A stretch of DNA of 64,000 bases from assembly GCF_036322625.1 (NCBI RefSeq), contig NZ_AP027266.1, forward strand, positions 2,173,001 through 2,237,000, given 5' to 3'. The position numbers were made by a program, and so were the translations under genes. Position 1 is the stretch's first letter. Every line of letters starts with the position of its first letter. Under the pieces are notes generated by a model. The model saw only the letters and a list, made by a program, of their open reading frames with translations, was not told where the DNA came from and did not search any database. The DNA is from Roseicyclus marinus. Its GTDB lineage: Bacteria; Pseudomonadota; Alphaproteobacteria; Rhodobacterales; Rhodobacteraceae. Below are positions 31,666-55,065 of the stretch, piece by piece.

Positions 31666-31669
31666 GCCC

Positions 31670-32514: not shown

Positions 32515-32530
32515 GACCTGAGCTTAGGTC
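32515..32530. promoter_or_regulatory. Candidate LysR operator upstream of the SDR operon
   Basis: GACCTGAGCTTAGGTC is palindromic at 14 of 16 positions. It runs on into AGGTCAGGCT (32526-32535), a ten-base word that recurs at 33539-33548 in front of lysR. A related CTGAGGTCAG lies at 32481-32490. The palindrome is centred about 65 bp upstream of the SDR start. Binding by the adjacent LysR protein is an inference. Confidence 0.5.
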
Positions 32531-32561
32531 AGGCTCGGCAAAGCGCCGGTCTGATCCGGCC

Positions 32562-33491: not shown

Positions 33492-33538
33492 GATCTGAGG
33501 TTATCCTTCCGCAATTTCTTGGCGGTCATCTTAAGTTC

Positions 33539-33548
33539 AGGTCAGGCT
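33539..33548. promoter_or_regulatory. AGGTCAGGCT motif in the lysR/abrB divergent promoter region
   Basis: This ten-base word matches 32526-32535 exactly. It lies 48 bp upstream of lysR and 58 bp upstream of the AbrB-type gene, with TTAAGTTC before it. A second related half-site (TCTGAGGTTA) lies at 33494-33503. It is a candidate autoregulatory LysR site. Confidence 0.45.
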
Positions 33549-33606
33549 AGACTTCGCGCCGGATCAGCGTCAAGCCAACCCTGCGTCGACGCGAGCGAGA
33601 CTTGGA

Positions 33607-35714: not shown

Positions 35715-35745
35715 AAGGGCCGGCCCCCGCAAGGACCGGCCCCTT
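35715..35745. terminator. Bidirectional hairpin between the dehydrogenase and tctC
   Basis: AAGGGCCGG (35715-35723) pairs with CCGGCCCCTT (35736-35745) with one bulged base. It lies between two convergent genes; the AAG/CTT ends give short A/T flanks on both strands. Confidence 0.65.
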
Positions 35746-35766
35746 CCTCGTCTTTCCGGCTGGGGG

Positions 35767-36720: not shown

Positions 36721-36792
36721 GGGGTGGTCTCCTCCTCCGGTTGAACTTTCACGCGTCTGCGTGTCGAGACGGTTCAGGGGTCCGCGCCCTCC

Positions 36793-38325: not shown

Positions 38326-38816
38326 CAGAACGGCCAGTCGAAAGCCGGCATGCTCAACCGCAGACCCGCGATGAAGACACCCCAGGTGAGCGCCGCCATG
38401 GCAGCCCCCAGAAGGAGCGCGCGGCTGGCCGAGAGCTTGACCTCTGCAAGGGTGGCGATGACCGTCGTGACCATGACCGCAGGCACCAGCCCGAAGGGCT
38501 CGATCATCAGCGCAAAGGCCAGAACGGCCGCCGACAGGAACACCATCGGCCGCAGGCGCAGATTGGCGGCCTCGCCCCGCTGACCCCACGCAGGCAGGGC
38601 AATAGCAAGGCCGAAGGCCGCGAGGATCACGCCAAGCGACACGGGCATCATGCCCGGTCCCATTCTTGACACCGTTCCCAGCGCATAATGCGACAGCGCA
38701 TAGAGCGCCGCCCCGGTCCCGGCGAGGATCAGAAACAGGCCTGCAAAGATGTCACGGTAATTGCGATCCAGCACCGCCGTACTCCCCTCCGGCAGGGGCA
38801 AGGCCCCGTTGATCAT
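38325..38816 (-). CDS. tctB: Tripartite tricarboxylate transporter small subunit TctB
   Basis: This 163-residue protein has four hydrophobic helices of the TctB pattern: DIFAGLFLILAGTGAALYALSHYALGTVSRMGPGMMPVSLGVILAAFGLAIALP, then VFLSAAVLAFALMIEPFGLVPAVMVTTVIATLA and LLLGAAMAALTWGVFI. It is the first gene of the tct operon and overlaps tctA by one base. ATG 38816 is used; a GTG 45 bases later (VLDRNYRD) would give a shorter N-terminus closer to many homologs. Confidence 0.9.
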   Translation of the reverse strand: MINGALPLPEGSTAVLDRNYRDIFAGLFLILAGTGAALYALSHYALGTVSRMGPGMMPVSLGVILAAFGLAIALPAWGQRGEAANLRLRPMVFLSAAVLAFALMIEPFGLVPAVMVTTVIATLAEVKLSASRALLLGAAMAALTWGVFIAGLRLSMPAFDWPF

Positions 38817-38940
38817 GACCTTCGAGCCATCCCGCCCCGCGCACAACATGCGAAATAGCGGGCGAGCATAACAAACGGTAAGGCTCAAGCCACGGGGAGC
38901 ATGGCTTGCCTGCCGCGCCGTCGCGCGCAACAAGACGGGC

Positions 38941-39354
38941 ATGGAACAGGATCTGATCGCCGCGGGATGGACGCTCGACCCCGATGACGGGTTCGTCGGG
39001 CATGTGGGGGGGCTTTGGCGGCGCGAAGTCGGCGCGGATACGCAGGTCGCCTTCATCGCGCGCCCCTTCCATGCGAACCGCAACGGGGTGGTGCATGGGG
39101 GCATGTTGATGACCTTCATCGACCGCGCCATGGGCCAGAGGGCCCGCAAGGTCACGGGTGCGGTGCGTGGCGCGACGGTCAGCCTCACGCACCAGTTCCT
39201 TGCCCCTGTCCGCATCGGCGATCTGGTCGTGATGACGCCGGAGGTGGTTCGCCAGACATCGAAAATGGTGTTCCTGACCGGCACGGCCCATGTCGGCGAG
39301 GAACCCGTGGTGCAGGCGCAGGGCGTCTGGCGCGTGACCTTCAGCGTCCCGTGA
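38941..39354 (+). CDS. PaaI-type hotdog thioesterase
   Basis: This 137-residue protein has the hotdog fold signatures GVVHGGMLMTFIDRAMGQRA (about 50-69; HGG is the family mark and the Asp in FIDRA the usual acid) and VSLTHQFLAPVRIGD. It would hydrolyse an acyl-CoA thioester, probably clearing CoA esters in the catabolic block. ATG 38941 lies 124 bp from the divergent tctB start. It converges with the ADP-forming ligase gene at 39361, leaving only six bases between stop codons. Confidence 0.88.
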   Translation: MEQDLIAAGWTLDPDDGFVGHVGGLWRREVGADTQVAFIARPFHANRNGVVHGGMLMTFIDRAMGQRARKVTGAVRGATVSLTHQFLAPVRIGDLVVMTPEVVRQTSKMVFLTGTAHVGEEPVVQAQGVWRVTFSVP

Positions 39355-39360
39355 ACGCGG

Positions 39361-41436: not shown

Positions 41437-43478
41437 CGCGTCACTCTCCCGTTTGTGCGTAAGTGTCCAAGGTCGCCCTTGCGCCGTCCCGGCCCTGCCA
41501 TGGCGGCGAAATCGGCGCAGGCTTGCGCCAGTGCCGGCCCATCTTGCTCAAGGGCCCAATGCACCGGCCCCCCGCGCCAGCGCGGGAAGCCGTAGCCGTT
41601 CACCAATGCCACGTCGATATCGCCGGGGCAGAGCGCGATCCCGTCCGCCACGACCAGCGCCGCCTCGTTCACGATGGCCGCCATGGCGCGCAGCACGATG
41701 TCTTGGGGCAGAAGCGCCTGGCGCGTGATGGTCTTGGCGTCGGAGGCTGCGAGGATCAGCGTCTCGACCTGCGGATCGGGGAGCGGGTTGCCGCCCTCGT
41801 AACGGTAAAAGCCCGCACCGGTTTTGCGGCCGAACCGTCCCGCCTCGCAGAGCTGGTCGGGGATCGTGACATAGCGGTCGCGCGGGTCGCGCGTGGCGGC
41901 CTGCGCGCGGCGCATGTTCCAGGCGATATCGAGACCCGAAAGATCCGCGACCTTGAAGGGCCCCATCGCAAAGCCGAAATCCTCCAGCGCGGCATCGACC
42001 TCATGGGGCAGCGCGCCATCCTCCAGCATGAATTCGCACGCCGACCTGTAGGCCGCGTAGATCCGGTTGCCGATGAAACCGAACCCGTTGCCCGCCTCGA
42101 CCGGTTGCTTGCCCAGCAGTTTCGCGACCGCGAAACCGGTGGCCATCGCCGCATCGCTGCTTGCCGTCGCGCGCACGATCTCCAAGAGCTTCATCACATG
42201 TGCCGGGCTGAAGAAATGCAGGCCGATGACGCGCTCGGGGTGGCTGATGGCCTGCGCCATGGCATCGATGTCCAGATAGGAGGTGTTGGTCGCCAGAACC
42301 GCGTCACGCCGCAACACGGTGTCGAGCCGCGAGAACAGCGCCTGTTTGACACCTGCATCCTCGAAAACCGCCTCGATCACCAGATCGCAAGGCGAAAGGG
42401 CCGCCAGATCGGTTCCCGCCTGCAGCCGCGCGCGGGCTTTGGCGGCGGTCTCAACGGTCAGCTTTCCACGCCGGACCGCGCCGGCCAGCGCCTCGTCGAT
42501 CCGCGCGATGCCCCGGTCGAGCGCCGCCGCGTCGGCATCGACCAGACAGACGGGCCGCCCGGACAGCAAGATCGCCGTGGCGATGCCCGCGCCCATCGTG
42601 CCGCTGCCGATCACGCCCAGCCGGTCGATGGGCAGGGGTTTCGCGCGCCGGTCGGGGTTGCCGCGCGCGGCCTCGCGTTCGGCAAAGAAGATATGGCGCA
42701 ACGCGCGCGCCTCGGGTGCCGTGCGCAGGTGTTGAAAGGTCGCGCGTTCGGCTGCCAGCCCATCCGCCACGGGCCCATTGCCCGCGGCGCGAACATGGGC
42801 GATGGCCGCCAGCACATGGGGTCGCGCGCGGTGGGATGCCTTTGCCACGGCCTCCTCGAGGCCTTCTGTCTCGGGGACGGGACGGTCGATGACCCGCCGC
42901 TTCTCGCCCGCAAGGCTCAGGGCCAGGGCCACAGCCTCGGCCCGGAGATCGCCGGTCGCAAGCGCGTCGATCATGCCCAGCGCCAGGGCAGGCTCGGCCG
43001 GAACGCGCACTGCCCCGGCGATCAGGCGGATCGCCTCGGGCCGACCCACGAGCCGCGGCAGTTTCTGCGTGCCGCCCGCGCCCGGAATGATGCCCAAGGC
43101 GGTCTCGGGCAGGCCTATGACGGTCCCTTGCGCCGCGACGCGCGCGTCACAGCCCAGCGCCAGCTCATAGCCGCCGCCCAAGGCCGCGCCGTGCAGCGCC
43201 GCGACAAAGGGCTTGGTGGCCCCTTCGATGGCCGCGATCACCTGCGGCATCTGCGGCGGATCAAGCGGAAGGTCGAATTCGCGCAGGTCCGAGCCCGAAA
43301 TGAAGCTGCGCCCGGCCCCGATCAGCACCGCACCGGTACATGTCTCGTCCGCCTCGACCGTCGCGATCGCCGAAAGCAGGCCCTTGCGCACGGCATGAGA
43401 GCCCGCGTTGACGGGCGGGTTGTCGATGACCAGCACGGCGATCGGGCCGTCCCTTTCCAGATGCACGGAACCTGCCAT
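41433..43478 (-). CDS. Fused enoyl-CoA hydratase/3-hydroxyacyl-CoA dehydrogenase
   Basis: This 681-residue protein has an N-terminal crotonase domain (about 1-190; ISGSDLREFD and ALHGAALGGGYELALGCDARVAA; E in GLPETALGIIPGAGGTQKLPR). A 3-hydroxyacyl-CoA dehydrogenase NAD domain follows (about 290-470; LGVIGSGTMGAGIATAILL, DLVIEAVFED, NTSYLDI, GLHFFSPAHVMKLLEIV). The last part is two HCDH C-terminal repeats. It catalyses the second and third steps of beta-oxidation, like FadJ/FadB. ATG 43478 shares a base with the preceding ligase stop (TGATG); a GTG one codon earlier is less likely. The first-domain glutamates look intact. Confidence 0.93.
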   Translation of the reverse strand: MAGSVHLERDGPIAVLVIDNPPVNAGSHAVRKGLLSAIATVEADETCTGAVLIGAGRSFISGSDLREFDLPLDPPQMPQVIAAIEGATKPFVAALHGAALGGGYELALGCDARVAAQGTVIGLPETALGIIPGAGGTQKLPRLVGRPEAIRLIAGAVRVPAEPALALGMIDALATGDLRAEAVALALSLAGEKRRVIDRPVPETEGLEEAVAKASHRARPHVLAAIAHVRAAGNGPVADGLAAERATFQHLRTAPEARALRHIFFAEREAARGNPDRRAKPLPIDRLGVIGSGTMGAGIATAILLSGRPVCLVDADAAALDRGIARIDEALAGAVRRGKLTVETAAKARARLQAGTDLAALSPCDLVIEAVFEDAGVKQALFSRLDTVLRRDAVLATNTSYLDIDAMAQAISHPERVIGLHFFSPAHVMKLLEIVRATASSDAAMATGFAVAKLLGKQPVEAGNGFGFIGNRIYAAYRSACEFMLEDGALPHEVDAALEDFGFAMGPFKVADLSGLDIAWNMRRAQAATRDPRDRYVTIPDQLCEAGRFGRKTGAGFYRYEGGNPLPDPQVETLILAASDAKTITRQALLPQDIVLRAMAAIVNEAALVVADGIALCPGDIDVALVNGYGFPRWRGGPVHWALEQDGPALAQACADFAAMAGPGRRKGDLGHLRTNGRVTR

Positions 43479-45541
43479 CACGACCTCATCCGAACCAAGG
43501 CATCCACCGCCACCACGCCCTGCCCTTGTGGCAGAACGATCAGGGGATTGATCTCGGCCTCGACGATATCGGGCGATGCGGCAAGCCGCGAAAGCGTCAC
43601 GATCGCCTCCGCGAGCGCGGCAAGATCGCCGGGCGCGCGCCCCCTCGCCCCGGCCAGTATCCGGGCGTAGCGCAGGTCCGCGATCATCTCCTGCGCGGTG
43701 TCCAGATCGACCGGGGCCATCCGCACCACGCTGTCGCGGGTGATCTCGGCAAAGATGCCGCCCGCGGCCAGCATGACGACCGGGCCCATCTGCGGGTCGC
43801 GGCGCAGGCCCACCAGAACCTCGCCCACGCCTGCGCGCATGCGCTGCACGAGCACGCGCGTGACGGCATGCCCCGGCATCGCGCGGGCGACATCGGCGCG
43901 GATGGACGCGATGGCCGACGCCAGGTCTTCCGGCGTCTTCAGACCCACATGCACGCCGCCGACATCGCTTTTGTGCGGGATCGCCGCATCGAGAACCTTG
44001 GCCACGACCGGAAAGGGGAACGGCAAGTCACCGGGCGGCATCGCGGCATCGAGCGCCACCCAATCCGCCACGGGAACGCCCTGCAGGCGGCGATAGGCCT
44101 CGGCCTCGTCCAGCAGTCGTTCTGCGCCGTGGGTTGGCATGGGTGCAGGGGGCGGCAGGTTGGGATGGCGGCGCGCAAGGGCGGCGGCGACCGCATCGGC
44201 GCAGGTCTCGGGATCCTCGAAAACGGGCACACCCGCTCCGGCCAGTCGTTGCGCGGCACCGGGCGCGTCGGGCACGAGGAACACACCGAAGGGATGGCCC
44301 GGTGTCCCGATCAGATCCAGCGCAGGCTGGACCGCCAGATCGGGATTGAACCGGGCCGACGACCCCACGCAGACCTGAACGTAATCGTATTCGGGCGCGC
44401 TGCGGAACACGTCCATCGCGGCGCGCATCACCTGGTAATTCGTGCCTGCCAGCGTCAGATCGAGGATGCGACCGGGCTCCATCTCGATCCCTGCCTCCTG
44501 CAGGCGTGCGCGGGTCGTCTCGGTCGGAGCCACGATATCGAGGCCGCGTGCCGCCATCTGGTCGACCGCCATGGCCGCCCCGCCGCCGGTCGTGGTGATG
44601 ACACCGACACGCCCCCGGCGCAGGGCCGTGGCAGGGGGCACGCGCGACAGAAGCGGCGCGACCTCGAGCAGGGTCTCGAAGCCTTCGACCCGCGCGATGC
44701 CGCAGGCCGCGAGAAAGGCATCGGCCACCGCATCTTCGCCCGCAAGCGCGCCGGTGTGGGATTGCGCCAGTTCGGCGGCGGCCTCGGACCGGCCCAGCTT
44801 GAAGGCAGCCACGGGTTTGCCGTGACGCGCAGCTTCCTCGGCGAAGGCGCGCAACCGATCCGCATGGCCCATATGCTCAAGGAACAGGAGAAAACCGGTG
44901 ACGGCAGGATCGTGCAGACCCGCCATGCAGACATCCCCGATCGACAGGTCCAGTTCACCGCCCACCGAGACAAGGCTGGCAAAGCCCAACCCCTTGCGCT
45001 TGCCCCGCGACATCAGCGCGCCGATCAGGCTGCCGCTGTGGGAGGCGACGAACAGCCCCCCCTTGGGCGGTTCGGGTTCGGCAAAGGCCGCATTCGCGGT
45101 CAGCGCCATGCCGTGGTGCAGGTTCGCCAAGCCGATGGAGGATGGTCCCAGAACCCGGATCCGCCCGCGCGCCACCAGCGCCCGCAGCCGCCCGGTATTG
45201 GCGGCCCCGGCGGCACCGGCTTCGGCAAAGCCCGTGGCAAGGAGCGTGGCGACGCGAATGCCCATCGCCTCGCACTGCTCCAACGCGTCAAGTGCGGCAT
45301 CGGCACCGGTCAGGACGAAGGCGTGATCGGGCACCTCGGGCAGGTCGGACAGATGCCGAAACGCAGGCATGCCCTGCACCGTATCGCGGTTGGGATTGAC
45401 GGGATGGATGCGCCCGGCAAACCCCGCCGCCTTGAGAAAGCGCAAGGGTCGCCCCGAGGTCTTGGCGGGATCGTCCGACACCCCCACCAGGGCCACGCTT
45501 CGAGGGCGCAGCAGCGCATCGTGCCAGCCTGTATCCGCCAT
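43478..45541 (-). CDS. ADP-forming acyl-CoA synthetase, fused alpha-beta (copy 2)
   Basis: This 687-residue protein has the same domain order as the copy at 39361. It has a CoA-binding N-terminus (SVALVGVSDDPAKTSGRPLRFL), the phosphohistidine segment AQSHTGALAGEDAVADAFLAACG, and a C-terminal ATP-grasp (VVAKVLDAAIPHKSDVGGVHVGL, EAEINPLIVLPQGQG). The two copies are clearly paralogous but well diverged, so they probably activate different acids or form a heteromer. ATG 45541 overlaps the acyl-CoA dehydrogenase stop (TGATG). Some proteins of this family act as protein acyltransferases when a GNAT domain is fused; none is fused here. Confidence 0.9.
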   Translation of the reverse strand: MADTGWHDALLRPRSVALVGVSDDPAKTSGRPLRFLKAAGFAGRIHPVNPNRDTVQGMPAFRHLSDLPEVPDHAFVLTGADAALDALEQCEAMGIRVATLLATGFAEAGAAGAANTGRLRALVARGRIRVLGPSSIGLANLHHGMALTANAAFAEPEPPKGGLFVASHSGSLIGALMSRGKRKGLGFASLVSVGGELDLSIGDVCMAGLHDPAVTGFLLFLEHMGHADRLRAFAEEAARHGKPVAAFKLGRSEAAAELAQSHTGALAGEDAVADAFLAACGIARVEGFETLLEVAPLLSRVPPATALRRGRVGVITTTGGGAAMAVDQMAARGLDIVAPTETTRARLQEAGIEMEPGRILDLTLAGTNYQVMRAAMDVFRSAPEYDYVQVCVGSSARFNPDLAVQPALDLIGTPGHPFGVFLVPDAPGAAQRLAGAGVPVFEDPETCADAVAAALARRHPNLPPPAPMPTHGAERLLDEAEAYRRLQGVPVADWVALDAAMPPGDLPFPFPVVAKVLDAAIPHKSDVGGVHVGLKTPEDLASAIASIRADVARAMPGHAVTRVLVQRMRAGVGEVLVGLRRDPQMGPVVMLAAGGIFAEITRDSVVRMAPVDLDTAQEMIADLRYARILAGARGRAPGDLAALAEAIVTLSRLAASPDIVEAEINPLIVLPQGQGVVAVDALVRMRS

Positions 45542-46692
45542 CACGACGCCCTTTGGTCGAAGCGGCGCTCGAACACATGTTCCGCGATACGGTTTTTCAG
45601 CATTTCCAGCGACCCGCCTGCGATCTGCCAGCCACGCGTGCGCTTGACGCAATATTCCACGAGACTTTCGGTGGAATAGCCGTAGGCACCCATGGCCTGC
45701 ATGGCGGCATTGGCCACCTCGAAACCGGCCTCGTTGCAGGCGAGCTTTGCCACCGCCGTGTCGAAGGCGGACGGCAGGCCGTTGACATCGCCGTCGCGCG
45801 CGGCGCGATAGAGCAACAGCTGCGCCGCCTCGAGCTTCACGATCATCTCGGCGAAGCTCCACTGCAGGCCCTGAAACTCGCACAGGGGGCGGCCGAACTG
45901 GCTGCGCTCGGTGACGTGGCGGCGCGCCACCTCGTAGGCGTGCCGCCCCAAGGCCAGCGCGCGCGAGGCGTTGCCGATGCGCTCGACATTGAAGCCCGCG
46001 ATCTGTTTCTTGAACCCGCCCGGACCAAGCAGCAGGTTTTCGGCCGGGATCCGGCATTCCTCGAAATAGAGCGGGCACCATTCCTCCCCGCTCATGAAGG
46101 GGGCGGGCTGGCCGATGGTGAAGCCCGGCGTCCCGCGTTCGACGAGAACCGAGCCGATGCCGCCCGTCCCCGGCCCGAAGCGGACATAGATCAGGAACAG
46201 GTCGGCATGCGGGCTGTGGGTGGAAAACACCTTGGACCCGTTCAGGATGTAGCCATCGCCATCGGGCCGCGCAGTTGTCTTGAGCTCGGTCACGGCCGAT
46301 CCCGCATCGGGTTCGCTCATGCCCAGCGAGATCAGCTTGCGCCCGGCCAGCAGATCGGGAAACCAGCGCTCCTTTTGGGCAGGCGTGGCGAATTCCGCAA
46401 AGGTGCGGATCGGCCCGAAATTGCCCGCCTGCGCCACATCGGCGCTTTTGGGGCAGACCATCGCCAGTTCCTGGATCGTGATGACCGCATCCATCAACGT
46501 GCCGCCGATGCCGCCATCGGCCTCGGGGATGGTGATGCCCAGCATGCCCATCTCGGCCAATTTGCCGGCCACATCCCAGGGATAGGCGCTGGAATGGGCG
46601 CGGCCCAAGGCGCCGGCGGCCAGTTCACCCTCGGCGAAGCGGCGCACGGCATGCGCAAGCTCGACCTCGTCCTGGGTCAGTGCGGATGTCAC
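45541..46692 (-). CDS. Acyl-CoA dehydrogenase
   Basis: This 383-residue flavoenzyme has the three-domain ACAD fold: a helical N-terminus (DEVELAHAVRRFAEGEL), a beta domain with LISLGMSEPDAGSAVTELKTTA and GYILNGSKVFSTHSPHADLFLIYVR, and a C-terminal bundle (RSQFGRPLCEFQGLQWSFAEM, QAMGAYGYSTESLVEYCVKRTRGWQIAGGSLEMLKNRIAEHVF). It performs the first oxidation of an acyl-CoA, passing electrons to ETF. I place the start at GTG 46692 because an AGGAAGGAG ribosome site sits seven bases upstream; an in-frame ATG at 46731 lacks one. It leads the overlapping ACAD-ACS-HCDH-ACS set. Confidence 0.92.
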   Translation of the reverse strand: MTSALTQDEVELAHAVRRFAEGELAAGALGRAHSSAYPWDVAGKLAEMGMLGITIPEADGGIGGTLMDAVITIQELAMVCPKSADVAQAGNFGPIRTFAEFATPAQKERWFPDLLAGRKLISLGMSEPDAGSAVTELKTTARPDGDGYILNGSKVFSTHSPHADLFLIYVRFGPGTGGIGSVLVERGTPGFTIGQPAPFMSGEEWCPLYFEECRIPAENLLLGPGGFKKQIAGFNVERIGNASRALALGRHAYEVARRHVTERSQFGRPLCEFQGLQWSFAEMIVKLEAAQLLLYRAARDGDVNGLPSAFDTAVAKLACNEAGFEVANAAMQAMGAYGYSTESLVEYCVKRTRGWQIAGGSLEMLKNRIAEHVFERRFDQRAS

Positions 46693-46756
46693 GTCGGGGC
46701 TCCTTCCTCTGGCGGCAGACAGGTCTTGCACCGCCGATGATCGCGTTATCGAGCCA

Positions 46757-46809
46757 GATCACCGGTAAAGAAAAGTGACCGATTGTGGTGATCGGATAAC
46801 CTCTGGTTA
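46757..46809. promoter_or_regulatory. Candidate operator upstream of the acyl-CoA dehydrogenase operon
   Basis: GATCACC (46757-46763) is inverted as GGTGATC (46787-46793), followed by a second small inverted repeat TAACC (46797-46801)/GGTTA (46805-46809). Both lie in the 131-bp gap between the thiolase stop and the acyl-CoA dehydrogenase start, 65-120 bp upstream of GTG 46692. A regulator is not identified. Confidence 0.4.
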
Positions 46810-46823
46810 GGCAAATTGGCGAC

Positions 46824-48026
46824 TCACACCCGCTCGATGGCCAGGGCGATGCCTTGGCCTACGCCCACGCACATGGTCGACAGCGCACGCTTGCCGCCGG
46901 TCAGCGCGAGTTCAAGCGCCGCCGTTCCCACGATCCGCGCGCCAGACATGCCAAGCGGGTGACCAAGCGCGATGGCGCCGCCGTTGGGGTTCACGCGCGG
47001 ATCATCGTCCGCAATGCCCAGCGCGCGCAACGTGGCCAGCCCCTGGCTTGCGAAGGCCTCGTTCAGCTCGATCACGTCGAAATCGGTCTGTGAAAGTCCA
47101 AGCCGCGCCATCAGCTTTCGCGATGCGGGCACAGGCCCGATGCCCATGACCCGGGGCGCGACACCCGCCGTCGCCCCCCCGAGGATGCGCGCGACGGGTG
47201 TCAGGCCATGTCTGTGCGCCGCCGCCTCGGACGCGATGACAAGCGCTGCCGCCCCGTCGTTGACGCCCGAAGCATTGCCCGCCGTCACCGACCCGCCCGG
47301 CCGGAACGGGGTGGGCAGCTTGGCCAGCATCTGGGGTGTTGTATCGGGTCTTGGATGTTCATCCGCATCCACGACAAGGGGATCACCCTTGCGACGGGGG
47401 ATCGTCACCGGCGTGATCTCTTGCGCCAGCCTGCCGGCCGCGATGGCTGCCCCTGCCTTGATCTGCGACCCAAGTGCAAAGGCATCCTGATCGGCACGGG
47501 AAATCCCGTGATCCTCGGCCACGTTTTCCGCCGTCTCCGGCATGCTGTCGACGCCGTATTGCGCCCGCATCACGGGGTTCACGAACCGCCAGCCGATCGT
47601 CGTATCCTCGATCACGGGGGCGCGGGCAAAGGCGCTTTCCGACTTGGGCATGACGAAGGGCGCACGCGACATGCTTTCCACGCCACCCGCAAGGATCAGA
47701 TCCGCCTCGCCTGCCGCGATGGCGCGCGCTGCCGTCATCACCGCATCCATCCCCGAACCGCACAGCCGGTTGATCGTGGTCCCCGGCACGGTATCGGGCA
47801 GACCGGCCAGAAGCGCCGACATCCGCGCAACGTTGCGGTTGTCCTCGCCCGCCTGGTTGGCGCAGCCGAACACGACCTCGTCGAGCGCCGCCCAATCAAG
47901 ATCATGCCGCGCCATCAGCGCCCGGATCGGCACCGCCCCCAGATCATCGGCACGGACCGAGGCCAAGGCCCCCCCATAGCGCCCGATCGGAGTGCGGATA
48001 TAGGCACAGATAAAGGCATCAGGCAT
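46824..48026 (-). CDS. Acetyl-CoA acetyltransferase / 3-oxoacyl-CoA thiolase
   Basis: This 400-residue thiolase has the acyl-enzyme cysteine C89 in TTINRLCGSGMDAVMTAA, the His in NPNGGAIALGHPLGMSGARI, and the second Cys in STMCVGVGQGIAL. FICAYIRTPIGRYGGALASVRADDL at the start and the length resemble the PcaF/PaaJ (3-oxoadipyl-CoA thiolase) group, though general degradative thiolases cannot be excluded. It cleaves the beta-ketoacyl-CoA made by the downstream hydratase/dehydrogenase. It is on the same strand as the acyl-CoA dehydrogenase set, 131 bp upstream, and diverges from the carboxymuconolactone decarboxylase-type gene. Confidence 0.92.
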   Translation of the reverse strand: MPDAFICAYIRTPIGRYGGALASVRADDLGAVPIRALMARHDLDWAALDEVVFGCANQAGEDNRNVARMSALLAGLPDTVPGTTINRLCGSGMDAVMTAARAIAAGEADLILAGGVESMSRAPFVMPKSESAFARAPVIEDTTIGWRFVNPVMRAQYGVDSMPETAENVAEDHGISRADQDAFALGSQIKAGAAIAAGRLAQEITPVTIPRRKGDPLVVDADEHPRPDTTPQMLAKLPTPFRPGGSVTAGNASGVNDGAAALVIASEAAAHRHGLTPVARILGGATAGVAPRVMGIGPVPASRKLMARLGLSQTDFDVIELNEAFASQGLATLRALGIADDDPRVNPNGGAIALGHPLGMSGARIVGTAALELALTGGKRALSTMCVGVGQGIALAIERV

Positions 48027-48175
48027 GGGTCACAGGCTCCGCGTGGTTTGGGCAAGTCTAGCCTCGGACCGACGCGCTACAACGGACCTCGGTTTCGCGC
48101 AGCCCGACGATTGGTCAGGTTCCCCTTGTGCGCGCGCAGCGCCATAACCCGTCCAGACAAGCCAAAGCCCGAAGG

Positions 48176-48751
48176 ATGGACCCCCCAGTGACCCGCGACA
48201 CGATCCAGCGCCTCGAGGCACCCGATCCGGCAAGCTACAGCCCCCGCCAACGCGAGATCCACGATGCCATCGCATCAGGGCCGCGCGGCAATGTGCGCGG
48301 TCCCCTTGCCATATGGCTGCACCGGCCCGAACTGGCCGCCCGCGCGCAGGAACTGGGACGCTACTGCCGCTATGACAGCTCCTTGCCGCCGCGATTGAGC
48401 GAACTGGCGATCCTGACCATGGCGCGCCATTGGAGCGCCGAATACGAATGGGCGGCCCACAAGCCTGAGGCCCTGAAGGCAGGCCTGTCCCCCGAGGTGG
48501 TCGAGGCGATCCGCACCCATGCCCTTCCCCCCTATGCCGACGAGGCCGAACGCATCGTCCATGCGGTGGCGCGCTCGGTTCTGGAAACACGGCAGGTCCC
48601 GGATGCGCTCTATGCCGAAGCGGTCGCGGTTCTGGGTCAGGGACAGGTCGTCGATCTGGTGGGGGTGCTGGGCTATTATTCGCTCATCTCCATCACCCTG
48701 AACGTCTTTCGCGTGCCCCCGCCCGAGGGCCACGCCCCGGAACTGGGCTGA
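48176..48751 (+). CDS. Carboxymuconolactone decarboxylase-family protein
   Basis: This protein of about 191 residues has an all-helical CMD/AhpD-like domain. LPPRLSELAILTMARHWSAEYEWAAHKPEALKAGLSPEVVEAIR contains the conserved E and H of the family, but no CxxC pair of AhpD. Members include 4-carboxymuconolactone decarboxylase and many unassigned proteins in aromatic and acid degradation operons. ATG 48176 overlaps its own AAGGA ribosome site, so GTG 48188 (VTRDTIQRL), 11 bases behind AAGGA, may be the real start. It is followed after 11 bp by an SDR gene, so they are co-transcribed. Confidence 0.85.
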   Translation: MDPPVTRDTIQRLEAPDPASYSPRQREIHDAIASGPRGNVRGPLAIWLHRPELAARAQELGRYCRYDSSLPPRLSELAILTMARHWSAEYEWAAHKPEALKAGLSPEVVEAIRTHALPPYADEAERIVHAVARSVLETRQVPDALYAEAVAVLGQGQVVDLVGVLGYYSLISITLNVFRVPPPEGHAPELG

Positions 48752-48762
48752 AGGAGGACAGC

Positions 48763-49563
48763 ATGGCGGGACGGCTCGAGGGAAAGATCGCCATCGTCAC
48801 CGGCGCGGGATGCGTCGGTCCCGGCTGGGGCAACGGGCGGGCCACCTGCGTCCGCTTCGCCGAAGAAGGCGCGCGGATCTTTGCCATCGACCGCGAGGCG
48901 GCTCCCATGGCCGAAACCATCGACCGTGTCCGCGCGGTCGGCGGCGAGATCGAGACGCATCTGTGCGACGTGACGGACCGCGCGGCGGTCGAGGGGATGG
49001 TCGCGGCCTGCCTTGCCCGCCATGGGCGCATCGACATCCTGGTCAACAATGTCGGGGGATCGGCCCGCGGCGGCCCGGTCGAGATGGACGAGGCCACATG
49101 GCACCGCCAGATCGACGTCAACCTGACCTCGGTCTACCTGACCTGCCGGAGCGTGTTGCCGCATATGGCGGCGCAGGGCGCGGGCGCCATCGTCAACCTT
49201 GCCTCTGCCTCTGGCATCCGCTGGACCGGCGCCGCCCAAAGCGCCTATGCGGCGGCCAAGGCGGGCGTAATCCAGTTCAGCCGCGTGGTCGCGGTGGAAT
49301 ATGCGGCACGCGGTATCCGGGTGAACACGGTGGTGCCGGGCCAGTTGCACACGCCCATGGTCGAGACCCGGCTGGCGGGCCAACGCATGGGCGGCGATGT
49401 CGAGGCCTTGCTCGCGTCGAGGGTGCGGCGCATCCCGATGGGATGGATGGGCGACGGGCGCGATACCGCCAATGCGGCGCTGTTTCTCGCCTCCGAAGAG
49501 GCCCGATTCATCACGGGAACGGAACTGGTGGTTGATGGGGGGATGAGCCTTCGTTGCGATTGA
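48763..49563 (+). CDS. SDR-family oxidoreductase (second copy with extended glycine loop)
   Basis: This 266-residue short-chain dehydrogenase has IVTGAGCVGPGWGNGRAT, an acidic residue after the second strand (FAIDREA), NNVGGSARGG, and the catalytic S/Y/K in LASASGIRWTGAAQSAYAAAKAG. The C-terminal motif is ITGTELVVDGGM. An AAGGAGG ribosome site precedes ATG 48763. The glycine-loop insertion and overall wording match the SDR at 31670, so both belong to one subfamily. It is downstream of the CMD-type gene in a two-gene unit. Confidence 0.9.
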   Translation: MAGRLEGKIAIVTGAGCVGPGWGNGRATCVRFAEEGARIFAIDREAAPMAETIDRVRAVGGEIETHLCDVTDRAAVEGMVAACLARHGRIDILVNNVGGSARGGPVEMDEATWHRQIDVNLTSVYLTCRSVLPHMAAQGAGAIVNLASASGIRWTGAAQSAYAAAKAGVIQFSRVVAVEYAARGIRVNTVVPGQLHTPMVETRLAGQRMGGDVEALLASRVRRIPMGWMGDGRDTANAALFLASEEARFITGTELVVDGGMSLRCD

Positions 49564-49591
49564 CGCGGCAAGACGCGAAGGCTCCCTTGGT

Positions 49592-49609
49592 CCTCCCGGC
49601 ACGAGGAGG
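49592..49609. terminator. Weak hairpin after the CMD-SDR unit
   Basis: CCTCC (49592-49596) pairs with GGAGG (49605-49609) about 30 bp after the SDR stop. No T-run follows. The remaining gene-free stretch to 49823 shows nothing else. Confidence 0.35.
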
Positions 49610-49823
49610 GCCCGCCCGATACCGTTCGTGGCAGCGGCCCGTCGATCCGGCCATCCCTGTGGCGGGGCCATCAATGCCCGCGCAATAGAAGCTCACGATA
49701 CCGACCGTGCAATTGGCGAGGGTCCGAGCGCGGCCGCGCGCGACGCAGGAACCATGCCGGACCTTGGGGTCGTGATGCGTGGGTCAGGTGCAGCAGCGAC
49801 ACCTTGAAAAACCCAAGGCCTGG

Positions 49824-50339
49824 TCAGGGCAGGTTTGGTTCGAATGTCGCCCCGACATCGAGAAATTCATCCATGAAGACGCTCATCAACTCGGTCCGGG
49901 ACGAGACGCCGGTCTTGCGGAAAATGTTGGTGGTCTGCGCCTTGACCGTCCCCTCGGCGGTCGAGCGGGCCTTGGCGATGTCGGCGATGCTCAGACCCTT
50001 GAGCATGTACATCACGATGTCGCTTTCGGCGGGGCTGAGGTTCCATTCCTGGAACTTGCCGCGCACGAAAGTGTCCATTTCGCCCCGCAGGAACAGGAGC
50101 GACCGGGATTGCCGATCATTGTGTTCGCGCAGGCTTTTCATTTCCCGCAAGAGAATGCGGATCGCGAACATCAGGGCAGCGGCCGAGAGGATCTCGAACA
50201 GGAGATGGATCAGTTCCAGCAGGTCGGGCGCGTTGTTGGCGACAAGGCGTTCGTAGATGTCGCTTGCCACGTCGAAGAGAAAGAAGGCGACACCACCGAC
50301 GAGGAAAAGAGTGACATATTTCAGGGTTTTGGGTTGCAT
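49824..50339 (-). CDS. Membrane-anchored LuxR-type HTH regulator
   Basis: This 171-residue protein has two N-terminal membrane helices (about 8-25 and 42-63). A short charged helical linker follows (about 64-95, REMKSLREHNDRQSRSL). The C-terminus is a LuxR/GerE HTH (about 103-160, WNLSPAESDIVMYMLKGLSIADIAKARSTAEGTVKAQTTNIFRKTGVSSRTELMS). There is no ligand-binding or receiver domain, so any sensing must be by the membrane part. Start ATG 50339 (MQPKTLKYV). It is on the same strand as, and downstream of, the hemolysin-family/AMP-ligase/SDR/oxygenase operon and DUF2147. A hairpin lies between, so it may have its own promoter. Its target genes are unknown. Confidence 0.85.
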   Translation of the reverse strand: MQPKTLKYVTLFLVGGVAFFLFDVASDIYERLVANNAPDLLELIHLLFEILSAAALMFAIRILLREMKSLREHNDRQSRSLLFLRGEMDTFVRGKFQEWNLSPAESDIVMYMLKGLSIADIAKARSTAEGTVKAQTTNIFRKTGVSSRTELMSVFMDEFLDVGATFEPNLP

Positions 50340-50456
50340 TGTCCGTCTTGGTTGCGCGCGGCCTTTGGGCGCCGCGTCGTCGCGCTCGTGCCGCCCGTTT
50401 GCTGCGGCATGCCTGTCTTGGTCAAGCTTTGCGTCATCCACGCCCACAAGACAAGC

Positions 50457-50488
50457 CTGACGGGCCGCTCCATAGGATGGCCCGTCAG
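50457..50488. terminator. Hairpin between DUF2147 and the HTH regulator genes
   Basis: CTGACGGGCC (50457-50466) pairs perfectly with GGCCCGTCAG (50479-50488) over a 12-base loop. It lies 44 bp after the DUF2147 stop on the minus strand and is a likely end for the upstream operon. Confidence 0.65.
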
Positions 50489-50531
50489 CAAGATGCGCCC
50501 GCCGGGCGGCGCCATCAGGATGGAATTCGGA

Positions 50532-50927
50532 TCACTGGACCCGTGTCCAGTTGCCCCCGTTACGACAGATGATGCCGCCCAGAACGCAGCCGTTGACCTC
50601 GATGGCGTCGCCCGAAAGCTCGAGGCGTGACATGTATTCCTTGTCGCGGTCAGGGGCGTAGATGCGGCCCTCGTATTCGCCTGCAGCCTCTTGCGCGAGG
50701 TTCCAGACGATCAACCGGCCGATAGTGTCGGGCTGGATGGCCTCGCCCGAGGCATTCTCGGCACGCTCAAGGGTGCCGCAAAAGGTGGCCCCGCAGGGCT
50801 CGACGCGGATGTAGCCGATATCGCCGTGATCGTCAGGCGCGGTGCGCCACAGCCCTTCGATCGGGTCGGCCAAGGCGGGGCCGACCGAGAGAACCGTGAG
50901 GAAGATGGCGGTCCAGATGCGTGTCAT
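50532..50927 (-). CDS. Secreted DUF2147 protein
   Basis: This 131-residue protein has a signal peptide (residues 1-21, ending ALA-DP) and a DUF2147 beta-barrel-like domain: IEGLWRTAPDDHGDIGYIRVEPCGATFCGTLERA, GRIYAPDRDKEYMSRLELSGDAIEVNGCVLGGIICRNGGNWTRV. Four cysteines (PCGATFCG and GCVLGGIIC) could form two disulfides, which fits the periplasm. The function of DUF2147 is unknown; its shape suggests a small-ligand or lipid-binding barrel. Start ATG 50927. It is 47 bp after the oxygenase gene on the same strand, so it is probably in that operon and may bind or export the product. Confidence 0.87.
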   Translation of the reverse strand: MTRIWTAIFLTVLSVGPALADPIEGLWRTAPDDHGDIGYIRVEPCGATFCGTLERAENASGEAIQPDTIGRLIVWNLAQEAAGEYEGRIYAPDRDKEYMSRLELSGDAIEVNGCVLGGIICRNGGNWTRVQ

Positions 50928-50974
50928 GTTGGGTTTCTCCGAAATTTGTCCAAGGGATGCGGGGGCAAGGGCGA

Positions 50975-51835
50975 TCACAGGTTGCCCATGCCGATGAAGA
51001 GTTGGCGGTTGGTGTCGACGATGGCACGACGGCCGTGCATCACGCGGGTGTTGTCGAGCACGGCAATGTCGCCATCCTGCCAGTTGATCTCATGCGTGAA
51101 GGTTTCGGCCAGTTCGCGCAGGGTCTCGACCTCGTCCGGGCCGACCTCGTCGCTGCCGTCCAGCCGGTACCGGGGCGGGGCGTAATTGTGCGACGGTCCC
51201 AGAACCGCATTGGCAAATCCCAAGCCCCCCGACAGCGCCGATGCGCGGACCGGCGACACCGTAAGCCGATAATTGATGCCGCCATCCTCGAGCAGGTCGA
51301 AATCCTGATTGGGGATCGCGGCCCGGAATTCCTCGACATGGCGGGGGGTGACTTCCTCGGGGCGGGAGATCGCGGGATGTTCGTTGGCGAGGTATCTTTT
51401 CCACAAGGCTTCGGGGAGATGGCGTTCGACGGTCATCGGGCGGCACCAACGCTCTTTCTGGCTGTCGTCCATCGCCTCGTAGACGGCCCGACCGTCACAA
51501 ACGGTCGTCTGCGAGCCTTCGAAGGCGGCGACGGGGCTGAAAAAGGCCACGATATCGGGGCAGACCGGCGTGTTGCCGTTTTCGATATGCAGACCGATGG
51601 GCCCGGTGCCGGCATCGACCTTCTGGGTGTTTGCATCGCCATATTCACGGGCGGGGTCGAAGGTGATCTTGCGGCAAAGCGCCTTGGTGAGGTCGCTGAA
51701 GCTGGCGATGTCGGTCTCGAAGCCGCGCAGGAGCGTCCAGCCGTCGCGTTCCAGATCGCCGCGCACGCGGTCCAGAACCGTCGCATCGCAGGGCGATTGC
51801 ATCCCGTGATCGGGGCGGATGATGTTGTAGGTCAT
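50975..51835 (-). CDS. TauD/TfdA-type Fe(II)/2-oxoglutarate oxygenase
   Basis: This 286-residue oxygenase has the facial triad H83-x-E85 (PIGLHIENGN) and distal H267 (DNTRVMHGRR), with a probable 2-oxoglutarate-binding Arg at 277 (DTNRQLFIG). The family usually has HxD; a glutamate here is a known variant. Such enzymes hydroxylate, desaturate or cleave C-H bonds using O2 and 2-oxoglutarate. Its position two bases after the SDR stop in an operon with an AMP-ligase and a hemolysin-family protein suggests it tailors an acyl or amino product. The substrate is unknown. Confidence 0.88.
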   Translation of the reverse strand: MTYNIIRPDHGMQSPCDATVLDRVRGDLERDGWTLLRGFETDIASFSDLTKALCRKITFDPAREYGDANTQKVDAGTGPIGLHIENGNTPVCPDIVAFFSPVAAFEGSQTTVCDGRAVYEAMDDSQKERWCRPMTVERHLPEALWKRYLANEHPAISRPEEVTPRHVEEFRAAIPNQDFDLLEDGGINYRLTVSPVRASALSGGLGFANAVLGPSHNYAPPRYRLDGSDEVGPDEVETLRELAETFTHEINWQDGDIAVLDNTRVMHGRRAIVDTNRQLFIGMGNL

Positions 51836-51837
51836 GG

Positions 51838-52641
51838 TCAGATCTCTTTGTGCTCATTGAATGACGTGAGCGCGAATTGCGCTCGGGATGTGTGCGCCTT
51901 CTTGATCAGGGCGCTGTCGATCAGGGCCGGCCAGAGCGATTGGATCGTGGCGAAGACGCGCTCGCCAAAGCCGGGATAGACGGTGTTTCGGCCTTTCAGC
52001 ACGCCGTCCCAGGCGCGCTGCGCGACCTGTTCTGGGGGGTCGAGCTTCATGCCGAAAGGTTCGACCAGATGGGCGAACCGGGCCTGCGCCGGTGTGCGGG
52101 TCGCGCGCGGCGCGACATAGGTGACGGAAATGCCGAATTCCGCCAATTCGCGCCGCAGCGCATCCGACAGGCCCCGCATCGCGAATTTCGTGGCCGAATA
52201 GGCCGCAAAGAACGGGAAGGCGATCATCCCGAACATCGACCCGATATTGACGATGCGCCCCTGTGCCTGGGCCAGTGCGGGCACAAGATCGCGCGTCAAT
52301 TGCACCGCCGCCGTCAGATTGGTGGCGATCATCTGCGTCAGGTCATCGTCGGTCATGTCGGTCAAACGCCCGACACGCAGGGTGCCTGCATTGTTCACGA
52401 GAATGTCGAGCCGGGCGCCGACCGCCTCGACGACGCGCGCACGCCCCTCGGGGGTGGTGATATCGGCGCTGACAAGGCGAGCGGGGGCCTGGGCCAACAG
52501 CGCCGCGGTTTCTTCGAGCTGTTCGGCCCGGCGACCCACGAGAACCAGCTCGTATCCCGAACGGGCCGCGGCGATGGCAAGCGCGCGGCCGATGCCGGAG
52601 CCCGCTCCGGTGATCAGCGCGACAGGGGGGTGTCCGGTCAT
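51838..52641 (-). CDS. Short-chain dehydrogenase in the hemolysin-family operon
   Basis: This 267-residue classical SDR has the cofactor motif ALITGAGSGIGRALAIAAA, VGRRAEQLEE (Arg after strand 2, suggesting NADP), LVNNAGTLRVG, and the catalytic S/Y/K in NIGSMFGMIAFPFFAAYSATKFAMRGLSDALR. The C-terminal part contains WPALIDSALIKKAHT. This style (long C-terminus with basic tail) is seen in lipid-processing SDRs. Its ATG overlaps the AMP-ligase stop (ATGA). It would reduce a carbonyl on the ligase/acyltransferase product, by inference. Confidence 0.9.
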   Translation of the reverse strand: MTGHPPVALITGAGSGIGRALAIAAARSGYELVLVGRRAEQLEETAALLAQAPARLVSADITTPEGRARVVEAVGARLDILVNNAGTLRVGRLTDMTDDDLTQMIATNLTAAVQLTRDLVPALAQAQGRIVNIGSMFGMIAFPFFAAYSATKFAMRGLSDALRRELAEFGISVTYVAPRATRTPAQARFAHLVEPFGMKLDPPEQVAQRAWDGVLKGRNTVYPGFGERVFATIQSLWPALIDSALIKKAHTSRAQFALTSFNEHKEI

Positions 52642-54068
52642 GCGGTCAATTCCTCGAATTCATAGGTCAGGCGGATGGAGGGGTGACTTGCGGCCAAGGC
52701 CCCGAGGCGGCTTCGATCCATGCCGCCGCCCGGCTTGAGCAGGCCCGGAAGCGAGGCGGGCACGAAGATCACGCGCGCGGGTCTGGCATAGGGCGGCAAG
52801 CCGCGCAGAAGCTCGGCCACATGTTGCGGTGTCACGGGGGCGGCAACGAGCGCGATGATCTCGAGCCGCCCATCCTGGGCAAGACGGACGCCCGCTGCGG
52901 GAATGCGGATATCGGCGGCGACCTGCGCTTCGACCCATTCGGGATTGATGTTGCGCCCCTCGGGCGTGACGATCAGCCAATCCTTGCGGCCCTCGACGAT
53001 CAGGACCCCGTATTCGAACCGGCCCAGGTCGCCCGTGCGCCATTCCCCCTCGACGGCAGGCTGGCCAAGATAGCCCTCCATCACCGTCGGCCCGGAGACG
53101 ACGATTTCGCCATCGTCGATGCGAACCTTGATTCCGTCCAGAACGCGCCCGACGCTGCCGGGGCGGTTCGCGCCGGGCCGGTTGAGCGCCACGACGGAGG
53201 AACATTCCGAAAGGCCATAGCCCTCATGGACCGGCATGCCATGTGCCAAGGCGGCATCGAGCAATGCTGGGGCCGTCGCGGCACCGCCCACGGCCACGAA
53301 CCGCAGGCTGTCGGGGGCGCGTTCACCCGCCATCGCGAGCCCGCCAAGAAGCCGCGACAGCAAGGCGGGCACAAGGATCGTTGTCGTCGGTTGCGCCTCG
53401 GCCAGCGTCCGGACAAGTGGTTCCACTGCCCCCCCGAACAGGGCGCTCAGAGCCTCGGGGCAATAGCGGACCTGTGCGCCCGCAAGAAGCGGCAGGTACA
53501 GCCCCGCGATCTGTTCGAGAAGCTGCGCCATCGGCAAAAGCGACAGGTGAATATCCGAAGGCACGGGCAGGATCGCGCGTTCCAGCCCGGCAATCGCAGC
53601 TTCCATCTGGCGCGCGCCGATCACGACCCCTTTGGGGCGTCCCGACGACCCCGAGGTAAAGATGATGCGTTTGGCCGATCCAGTGGGCGCGGGCAGATCG
53701 ACGGCAAGATCGCAGGTTTCGGGCGCTGGCAGTGCGATCCTTTGCCCGGGGGTCGCCCATGGCCCGATGACGGCCCTGACCCCGGCTGCGGCGATGATAT
53801 GGACCTTCTGCTCATCGGAAAAGAACGGCGGCAGATGGACCGAAACGCGGCCGGTGTAGGTCAGGGCCAGATCGGCCAGGGCAGCCTCCAACGGATCGGC
53901 CCCCGTGATGCCGACGACAGAAGGCGCGCCAGACAGGGTTTTCGCACTGGCGGCCAGGAAGGCGGCAAGATGGCGATAATCGATGATCCGGTCACCGGAC
54001 CGCAACGCAGGTTTGTCGCCGAGGTCACGGGCATGCGCCCCGATTGCGTGAAACACCCGGGCCGTCAT
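52638..54068 (-). CDS. AMP-dependent ligase of the hemolysin-family operon
   Basis: This 476-residue adenylate-forming enzyme is shorter than typical acyl-CoA ligases (about 500-560). Motifs: the P-loop IFTSGSSGRPKGVVIG (about 136-151), HEGYGLSECSSVVALN, and WRTGDLGRFEYGVLIVEGRKDWLIVTPEGRNINPEWVE (the A7/A8 hinge). The usual C-terminal catalytic lysine (NGKxDR) reads GGGMDR, with the nearest Lys four residues earlier, so adenylation chemistry may be altered. It would activate an acid, probably fatty, as acyl-AMP or acyl-CoA for the GNAT-like hemolysin-family protein encoded just upstream. It overlaps the upstream gene by one base (TGATG). Confidence 0.87.
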   Translation of the reverse strand: MTARVFHAIGAHARDLGDKPALRSGDRIIDYRHLAAFLAASAKTLSGAPSVVGITGADPLEAALADLALTYTGRVSVHLPPFFSDEQKVHIIAAAGVRAVIGPWATPGQRIALPAPETCDLAVDLPAPTGSAKRIIFTSGSSGRPKGVVIGARQMEAAIAGLERAILPVPSDIHLSLLPMAQLLEQIAGLYLPLLAGAQVRYCPEALSALFGGAVEPLVRTLAEAQPTTTILVPALLSRLLGGLAMAGERAPDSLRFVAVGGAATAPALLDAALAHGMPVHEGYGLSECSSVVALNRPGANRPGSVGRVLDGIKVRIDDGEIVVSGPTVMEGYLGQPAVEGEWRTGDLGRFEYGVLIVEGRKDWLIVTPEGRNINPEWVEAQVAADIRIPAAGVRLAQDGRLEIIALVAAPVTPQHVAELLRGLPPYARPARVIFVPASLPGLLKPGGGMDRSRLGALAASHPSIRLTYEFEELTA

Positions 54069-54661
54069 CACGCGATCTCCGCATAATGGGGGGCTGTCGA
54101 TGGCACCTGTGCCGGGTCGCGAAAGGCGCAGACCCAAGGGTCGTGATCGTAGTAATTGCCCCAGGCATCCGCATTCGGCACGCGACCGGCTTCGGCGCGG
54201 GCCAGCATCACCGGCGTGATGCGCGCCCGCAGGATCAGCCGCCGGATTTCGGCCGTCGCCGTGAACAGACCCCAGCCGATCCCGCGCGCCCGCCCCCAGT
54301 CGAAAACCGCGCGCAGGGTCGGATAGGCGGAAAAGGGCGAGATGCAGGCGAGGCTGCCGACTTCGAGCAGGTCTTGGGGCAGCACAGGCTGGGAGGCTTG
54401 CCGGGTCAGGGCATCGCTGACGGTCTCGTCGAGATAATGCTGCGAAAAGAAACCATCGGCATGGCACCTGATCCCCGCCGCGCAGGCGATGCGCCCGTCG
54501 TCGGTCATGGTGATCACAAGACGCGGTGGGCGCTGTGTCACCTCGGCCGCGAACACCGCTTTGTAGGTGGTCGACATATGATCGAGGGCGCGCTCATAGA
54601 GCCGATCCGCCCCCACGCCTGCATCTTCCATGACCAAGGTCTGCAATGTCCGTCTCCGCAT
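54068..54661 (-). CDS. Thermostable-hemolysin family protein (acyltransferase-like)
   Basis: This protein of about 197 residues matches the T_hemolysin family along its length: YERALDHMSTTYKAVFAAEV, DDGRIACAAGIRCHADGFFSQHYLDETVSDAL, LLEVGSLACISPFSAYPTL, GWGLFTATAEIRRLILRARI and WGNYYDHDPWVCAF. The family takes its name from the Vibrio delta-hemolysin, but its fold (as I recall) is of the N-acyltransferase type, related to LuxI-like synthases. There is no signal peptide or membrane helix, so an intracellular enzyme is more likely than a toxin. Start ATG 54661 is my choice among several Mets (54784, 54631); none has a clear ribosome site. First gene of the operon. Confidence 0.8.
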   Translation of the reverse strand: MRRRTLQTLVMEDAGVGADRLYERALDHMSTTYKAVFAAEVTQRPPRLVITMTDDGRIACAAGIRCHADGFFSQHYLDETVSDALTRQASQPVLPQDLLEVGSLACISPFSAYPTLRAVFDWGRARGIGWGLFTATAEIRRLILRARITPVMLARAEAGRVPNADAWGNYYDHDPWVCAFRDPAQVPSTAPHYAEIA

Positions 54662-55065
54662 AACGCAGCGATAAAGGCTGCCGTTGCGGTGAGATCGGCG
54701 GAAATCCCGTGGAATGAAATTGTACCCTGGTCGGACCTCGGGGCTTTGCGGCGTCCTTATGACCAAAGTCATAGAGCCGAACATGCCTCGCTCAGCCGCA
54801 GGTCAACACGCGCGGGGACCCGACCTCGACATGCCGCCTGCAGCGACGATCGCCAGCGTCCCGCCAGACCTGAAAACCGGCGCGTTCCGTGATGGCACAG
54901 CTGGGGCATGGCGGCGCGGGTGTCGCTGGACCGACAGCTTTGTGGCCCCTTTCGGCACCGATCGTCCGCGCGACCGGCCCATATGGCCGCTTGCCCCCTG
55001 CCACCGCTCCCTGCCCCGCGCGACGGCCCTTGCCCTTCCCCCGCCATCGCGCCACATTCCCGGCC
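54662..55065. other. Gene-free divergent region between the hemolysin-family operon and cobT
   Basis: These 404 bases separate the two divergent units. They contain a perfect 6+6 inverted repeat at 54758-54773 but no convincing gene; the short frames here have poor codon use and no homologous look. The cobT-proximal half is C-rich. Promoters for both directions should lie here. Confidence 0.55.
54758..54773. promoter_or_regulatory. Inverted repeat, candidate operator of the hemolysin-family operon
   Basis: TATGAC (54758-54763) and GTCATA (54768-54773) are perfect complements around CAAA. The site is about 100 bp upstream of the first gene (ATG 54661), a usual place for an activator or a distal repressor site. 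The membrane-anchored LuxR-type regulator at 49824 is a possible binder; this is inference. Confidence 0.45.

Follow-up and report, generated by a model that had tools for sequence, protein, structure and literature searches.

A TauD-type form of a widespread, uncharacterised operon in Roseicyclus marinus and the LuxI resemblance of its T_hemolysin-family protein

The window analysed here is a 64,000-nucleotide stretch of the Roseicyclus marinus genome (contig NZ_AP027266.1, positions 2,173,001 to 2,237,000), and its subject is a group of six genes, all on the minus strand, which encode, in order, a T_hemolysin-family protein, an AMP-forming ligase, a short-chain dehydrogenase (SDR), a TauD-type Fe(II)/2-oxoglutarate oxygenase, a DUF2147 protein and a GerE-type regulator. 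The core consists of four open frames that span 54661 to 50975. The gene for the T_hemolysin protein (197 aa; 54068..54661; PF12261, E 2.8e-36 in the 197-aa form), a candidate LuxI-like acyltransferase, overlaps the ligase gene (476 aa; 52638..54068; PF00501, E 1.4e-43) by 1 bp; the ligase gene overlaps that of the SDR (267 aa; 51838..52641; PF00106, E 1.5e-48) by 4 bp, and the TauD gene (286 aa; 50975..51835; PF02668, E 7.4e-27) follows after a gap of 2 bp. The DUF2147 protein (50532..50927; PF09917, E 2.8e-14) has a signal-like N-terminus; its open frame begins at 50978, overlapping the end of TauD, and 50927 is the likelier start. The membrane-anchored GerE-type regulator (49824..50339; PF00196, E 6e-9), which has two hydrophobic segments, begins ∼ 190 bp past DUF2147. 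Its open frame extends from 50447, and the ATG at 50339 is the likelier start because a sister copy of the protein aligns from residue 36.

That sister copy belongs to another genus of the family (genome G128, locus L034), where the same six genes stand in identical order and the proteins are 55, 64, 71, 79, 70 and 73% identical to those of the window, given in operon order. The grouping is therefore no accident of the R. marinus genome. An earlier note, made from the letters of this stretch alone, had listed the DUF2147 protein and the membrane regulator after the operon; both are present, but among the 67 loci surveyed below they recur only in L034 and thus fall outside the conserved core.

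Counting the genome of the window itself, matches to the T_hemolysin protein were found in 8 of 295 Rhodobacteraceae genomes (protein search), in 18 of 385 genomes drawn from the class and in 78 of 398 drawn from the Pseudomonadota (32 of 213 genera), one family supplying 41 of these 78; there were none in 14 control genomes. Neighbourhoods, which were scored with home-made profiles, were fetched for 67 loci: seven plasmid hits (of 17 records), all seven other Rhodobacteraceae hits, 13 of the 17 other alphaproteobacterial hits (G541, G427, G309 and G538 were left out) and 40 places picked from the Pseudomonadota matches to spread over genera. Some of these loci are close kin, so that the counts are not independent, and several, including L044, L048, L087, L117, L119 and L122, are cut by contig ends. 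A ligase gene follows T_hemolysin in 63 of the 67, and beside each of the 63 ligases lies an iron oxygenase, which is either a haem-oxygenase-like iron enzyme (HDO; PF14518; 53 loci) or TauD (10 loci); the two never occur together. An SDR is encoded in 58 loci and a TPR protein in 46, with a hydrophobic N-terminus in 43 of the 48 TPR proteins tested. A response regulator or kinase lies downstream in 20 or 21 of the 67, and some other loci carry a regulator/kinase pair upstream, on either strand. Thus, the neighbourhood survey of T_hemolysin homologues that the earlier note had proposed indicates that the neighbours do not vary freely and, with the overlaps and the 2-bp gap, bears out its view of the four coupled genes as one pathway.

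The most regular arrangement was seen in Pseudomonas, in a profile scan of contigs that began from a gammaproteobacterial alignment. Of its 475 relatives the top 80 were kept, every one from Pseudomonas and two from a single strain; 75 of these have the full order T_hemolysin, ligase, HDO, SDR, TPR, response regulator and histidine kinase; the remaining five comprise two full loci with a doubled match, two without the regulator pair and one with the ligase only. The sensor region of the Pseudomonas kinase is a small one of the 2CSK_N family, and the partner of this kinase is of the OmpR type (Response_reg plus Trans_reg_C). The window shares with such loci a T_hemolysin gene followed by an AMP-ligase gene, together with an iron oxygenase and an SDR. 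Its own order is T_hemolysin, ligase, SDR, TauD; it has TauD in the place of HDO, and DUF2147 and the membrane GerE protein instead of an adjacent TPR protein and an OmpR/HisKA two-component pair. The operon of the window is thus the minority TauD form of a widespread operon. TauD, which the earlier note had counted as a part of the pathway, keeps that standing in so far as some iron oxygenase accompanies every ligase, but only as a minority substitute for HDO.

The other TauD-type loci come from seven further Rhodobacteraceae, a Paracoccus plasmid (L002, whose TauD is annotated as two frames), a Streptomyces plasmid and the Pseudomonas-family locus L093. We take the last to carry the genus label of Pseudomonas alcaligenes, since a protein of L084, which bears the same label, is 99% identical to a P. 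alcaligenes protein. In a quick tree of 73 rows the HDO/TauD swap needs two changes, although well-supported branches force only one. The Streptomyces and L093 operons lack the SDR and include an amidase gene. On the Streptomyces goshikiensis plasmid (L004:6460-15249) the T_hemolysin, ligase and TauD genes have as companions, besides this amidase, a methyltransferase and two genes, for a large FAD/NAD(P)-binding protein and a pcaB-annotated lyase, that are reminiscent of the nitrite-forming pair CreE/CreD; gamma-butyrolactone genes lie near this core. In L093 (9835-16746) the same three genes precede a pair of class-III aminotransferase genes and an amidase gene, which this second TauD-type context shares with Streptomyces.

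HDO, TauD and the SDR keep their catalytic residues. N108, S135, Y148 and K152 of the SDR are kept in all 59 aligned sequences (hits weaker than 1e-60 were left out before counting). H83-x-E85...H267 and R277 of TauD are kept in 10 of 10 (the window and nine loci, the split L002 copy being left out), so that the window protein has the H-x-D/E...H motif and the 2-oxoglutarate arginine. E80, H83, E137, H168, D172 and H175 of HDO (L007 numbering) are kept in 53 of 53. The HDO gene of Citrobacter matches PF14518 (Haem_oxygenas_2) at 3e-27, PDB 3dde at 1e-11 and, weakly, MboA (9ypi) at 0.047, a likeness that concerns the relatives, HDO being absent from the operon of the window. Ten of the 53 HDO loci encode a fusion of this enzyme with the ligase, a hint that the two catalyse successive steps. 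The ligase of the window keeps the P-loop and the A8 region; the position usually occupied by the A10 lysine, presumably the catalytic position of ANL adenylating enzymes, is Gly449. Across 64 aligned ligases this position holds Arg in 45, Lys in seven and other residues in 12, and in the 11 TauD types it holds Thr (five), Gly (two), Arg (two) or Leu (two).

The earlier note had considered the T_hemolysin protein an intracellular acyltransferase of GNAT/LuxI-like fold rather than a toxin, with neither signal nor membrane helix. In the window protein no 19-residue stretch exceeds a Kyte–Doolittle value of 1.6 (maximum 1.12), in agreement with that description, and no signal is seen, a dedicated signal-peptide program not having been applied; among the 67 homologues, of which the domain with its edges was scored, 14 show a single weak hydrophobic segment (1.61-1.80). 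The protein scores 125 bits against PF12261, whose curated cut-off is 27, and has no other Pfam match at E<=1; Y76, E100, W167, G168, Y170 and P175 are invariant in 47 aligned members. One of these 47 relatives matches FeeM (PF21926, E 0.15) and one Autoind_synth (PF00765, E 0.27), neither being the window protein, which thus differs from the FeeM N-acyl amino acid synthase in having no PF21926 match. Searches of the PDB gave chance matches only (best E 0.18 with the protein, 1.1 with the profile).

The resemblance to LuxI (Autoind_synth, PF00765) emerged from a profile comparison with 12 LuxI proteins of related genomes, at E 5e-4 (3e-5 once gappy columns had been taken out). The alignment is colinear over ∼ 121 columns and places the invariant Glu100 on the conserved Glu of LuxI. 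In 60 column shuffles of the LuxI profile E never fell to 5e-4 (lowest E 0.046; best score 18.7 versus 38.2 for the real profile); 25 of these shuffled profiles aligned over <=10 columns, and a reversed profile over one. Weaker matches were to FeeM-type (E 0.065) and Acetyltransf_5 (E 0.44) profiles. The other families of the operon gave E 0.16 or worse, except for a one-column match to the SDR profile, which hhalign scored at 99.65% probability and which we discarded as an artefact. The LuxI resemblance is therefore upheld at the level of profiles, which makes the T_hemolysin protein a candidate member of that fold. Outside the window, the same genome has a separate weak LuxI-family gene (L219; PF00765, E 2.5e-11), so that the organism may, in addition to the operon, have acyl-homoserine-lactone signalling of the ordinary kind. 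We know of no LuxI locus with a comparable set of ligase, oxygenase and SDR.

The explanation that we favour, with a probability of about 0.6, is that this is no toxin locus and that the operon would direct the synthesis of an acylated, oxidised small molecule by means of a LuxI-like acyl transferase; its first gene is probably misnamed. The T_hemolysin protein would be a cytoplasmic acyl-group transferase, most likely one that transfers fatty acyl groups onto amines or amino-acid-like acceptors. The ligase may handle a carboxylic acid, as the acyl donor or as an acylated intermediate, and the non-haem iron enzyme, HDO in most surveyed relatives and TauD here, would oxidise the substrate or the product of the ligase. 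HDO and TauD exclude one another, and their reactions may be equivalent. The SDR, whose fold and catalytic residues are evident, would then set the oxidation state. The product probably leaves the cytoplasm, a step that we propose because the enzymes adjoin the gene for an exported-looking partner (TPR, DUF6134 or DUF2147), to which a two-component or membrane regulator is often added.

Several observations weigh against this explanation. The T_hemolysin and LuxI families are only ∼ 12% identical, with an hhalign probability of 31 (72 trimmed), and the Arg30/Trp40/Asp51 signature of LuxI is not matched anywhere in the alignment; the protein would therefore be a LuxI-type transferase at most and, on this evidence, no acyl-homoserine-lactone synthase. 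The rarity of the A10 lysine casts doubt on ordinary adenylation, above all for the TauD-type operons. As judged from the residues, the ligase would either adenylate without this lysine or perform only a part of the usual reaction, and this is the main loose end. A two-component pair stands downstream in only about 20 of the 67 surveyed loci, and four T_hemolysin genes (L003, L005, L117 and L120) stand without the operon. Finally, the V. cholerae homologue has been reported, in a second-hand account, to be haemolytic in lysates and supernatant despite having no signal peptide (PMC4046660). Such an activity would be explained if the acylated product were surface-active.

Parts of the operon are already in print for V. 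cholerae, Serratia, P. alcaligenes and Pseudoalteromonas, so that the system, a candidate new one in the earlier note, is not wholly new. In V. cholerae the ligase DthC (VCA1110) belongs to the dth region, adjoining the delta-thermostable haemolysin, and a vca1110 transposon mutant produced C15 but no C17 from fed C13 acid (PMC12208996). The genes VCA1102-1111, entered as 'fatty acid biosynthesis, heme biliverdin, thermostable hemolysin', occur in V. cholerae but are missing from V. paracholerae (PMC8357300). The dth region resembles the window in having a T_hemolysin gene beside an AMP-ligase gene; it differs in being probably of the HDO type, to go by the summary given, rather than TauD, and in having been presented as a locus for a haemolysin and not for a LuxI-like pathway. 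The putative four-gene operon or1352-or1355 of Serratia sp. ATCC 39006 encodes TauD, a ligase, T_hemolysin and Bcr/CflA, and its genes are among the ten most changed in an rsmA mutant, T_hemolysin itself changing 184-fold (PMC4046660). It unites T_hemolysin, AMP-ligase and TauD, but with a Bcr/CflA exporter and no SDR it matches the TauD type of L004 and L093 rather than that of the Rhodobacteraceae. The genes RS08440-RS08460 of P. alcaligenes AVO110, which encode a ligase, an iron-containing redox enzyme, an SDR, a TPR protein and a response regulator, were up 389-, 373-, 318-, 107- and 38-fold in Rosellinia exudate (PMC8304167); we matched this cluster to the operon by gene order alone, the T_hemolysin gene not appearing in that table. 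The strong co-regulation in Serratia and, through the gene-order match, in P. alcaligenes supports a biosynthetic role and indicates conditions under which the product might be sought.

No description of the operon as a LuxI-like biosynthetic pathway was found in the literature covered, subscription papers being mostly outside the search. The window holds a genuine TauD variant of a widespread, uncharacterised operon. Genome papers tally T_hemolysin genes as virulence-associated traits (e.g. PMC5592226). If the protein is a LuxI-like enzyme of a conserved biosynthetic operon, such labels are misleading, and the product of a common pathway is still to be discovered. The exchange of HDO for TauD would, moreover, allow two unrelated iron enzymes, a pair supplied by nature, to be compared on perhaps one reaction.

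A bolder version of the biosynthetic explanation, which we regard as speculative, is a self-contained signalling system, in which the LuxI-like synthase and the tailoring enzymes would make a new class of oxidised acyl signal, sensed by the adjacent histidine kinase and response regulator (by the membrane GerE protein in the window), with TauD and HDO performing the same oxidation through different iron chemistry. A rival that we consider unlikely to a similar degree would have the operon modify the cell envelope: an envelope-sensing two-component system would control the making of a membrane lipid or lipid tag, acylated and oxidised, in place of a released molecule. The small sensor region of the Pseudomonas kinase and its OmpR-type partner would suit this, as would the exported-looking TPR, DUF6134 or DUF2147 gene that is usually present, the envelope-type genes near the operon in one locus, L002 (a lipid-A-disaccharide synthase N-terminal domain, GT39, cytochrome b and PepSY), and the C15/C17 phenotype of the vca1110 mutant. 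However, no glycerolipid-type acyltransferase occurs among the annotated recurring neighbours (some recurring frames are unannotated), and the TauD types of Streptomyces and the Pseudomonas family, with their amidase and a methyltransferase or aminotransferases, look more like specialised metabolism.

An improbable alternative is a fatty-acid degradation cluster, the authors of the P. alcaligenes study having filed RS08440-RS08460 under beta-oxidation and reported a fadD gene of that cluster as essential for growth in fungal exudate (PMC8304167). The ligase and SDR carry fatty-acid enzyme annotations, and the window operon adjoins a cluster of beta-oxidation type. Both lie in an accessory island of ∼ 26 kb (29105..55014), of which the operon forms the cobT-side end. 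The island is absent from the three congeners compared, of ten others in which cobT was found: in these three, the DNA left of window position 29.1 kb reaches cobT (55.0 kb in the window) within 0.7 to 1.2 kb. The operon itself is present in one of the 13 genomes of the genus, and the window has no tRNA genes. Beyond the operon, the island consists of a CoA-linked catabolic cluster with genes for a LysR regulator, a TctC-type receptor, MmgE/PrpD, enoyl-CoA hydratases, a 3-hydroxyacyl-CoA dehydrogenase, an ATP-grasp CoA ligase, an acyl-CoA dehydrogenase and a thiolase. When 12 proteins of the island and cobT were compared with the 18 kb around L034, no homologue was found, except that an SDR hit the operon's own SDR; the operon therefore occurs without that cluster. 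The DNA of one beta-oxidation-type gene (43478-46081) had no match in the L034 genome, in a search that would miss diverged copies, and gave matches of 30-40 bases in two congeners only. We accordingly dropped the beta-oxidation neighbours as members of the pathway. The annotated recurring neighbours of the surveyed loci likewise include no acyl-CoA dehydrogenase, thiolase or hydratase, and we know of no place for a LuxI-like protein in beta-oxidation. Least probable of all is a true membrane-damaging protein that its neighbours modify or regulate. The haemolysis of the V. cholerae protein and the toxicity to zebrafish ascribed second-hand to that of V. alginolyticus (PMC6262041) would suit this reading. 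Against it, the window protein has no signal or membrane helix, metabolic enzymes are paired with T_hemolysin in 63 of 67 loci, the T_hemolysin profile is LuxI-like and the V. cholerae paper, by its title, denies the protein a direct contribution to virulence.

Upstream of the operon by ∼ 100 bp lies the inverted repeat TATGAC-N4-GTCATA (54758..54773), to which the earlier note had drawn attention. The repeat exists, and its exact sequence occurs once in the window, but it is unremarkable: perfect 6+6 repeats with spacers of 0-12 bp are present in 71% of the window's 260-bp stretches, and upstream of seven relatives the sequence was not kept (best match, three mismatches). It was therefore dropped as a functional element.

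Cytochrome b-type genes adjoin the operon on the Paracoccus (L002:5076-5871, with PepSY) and Salinivibrio (L006:7213-7722) plasmids, and one alphaproteobacterial locus has an extra 200-aa frame between the T_hemolysin and ligase genes (L045:9388-9990).

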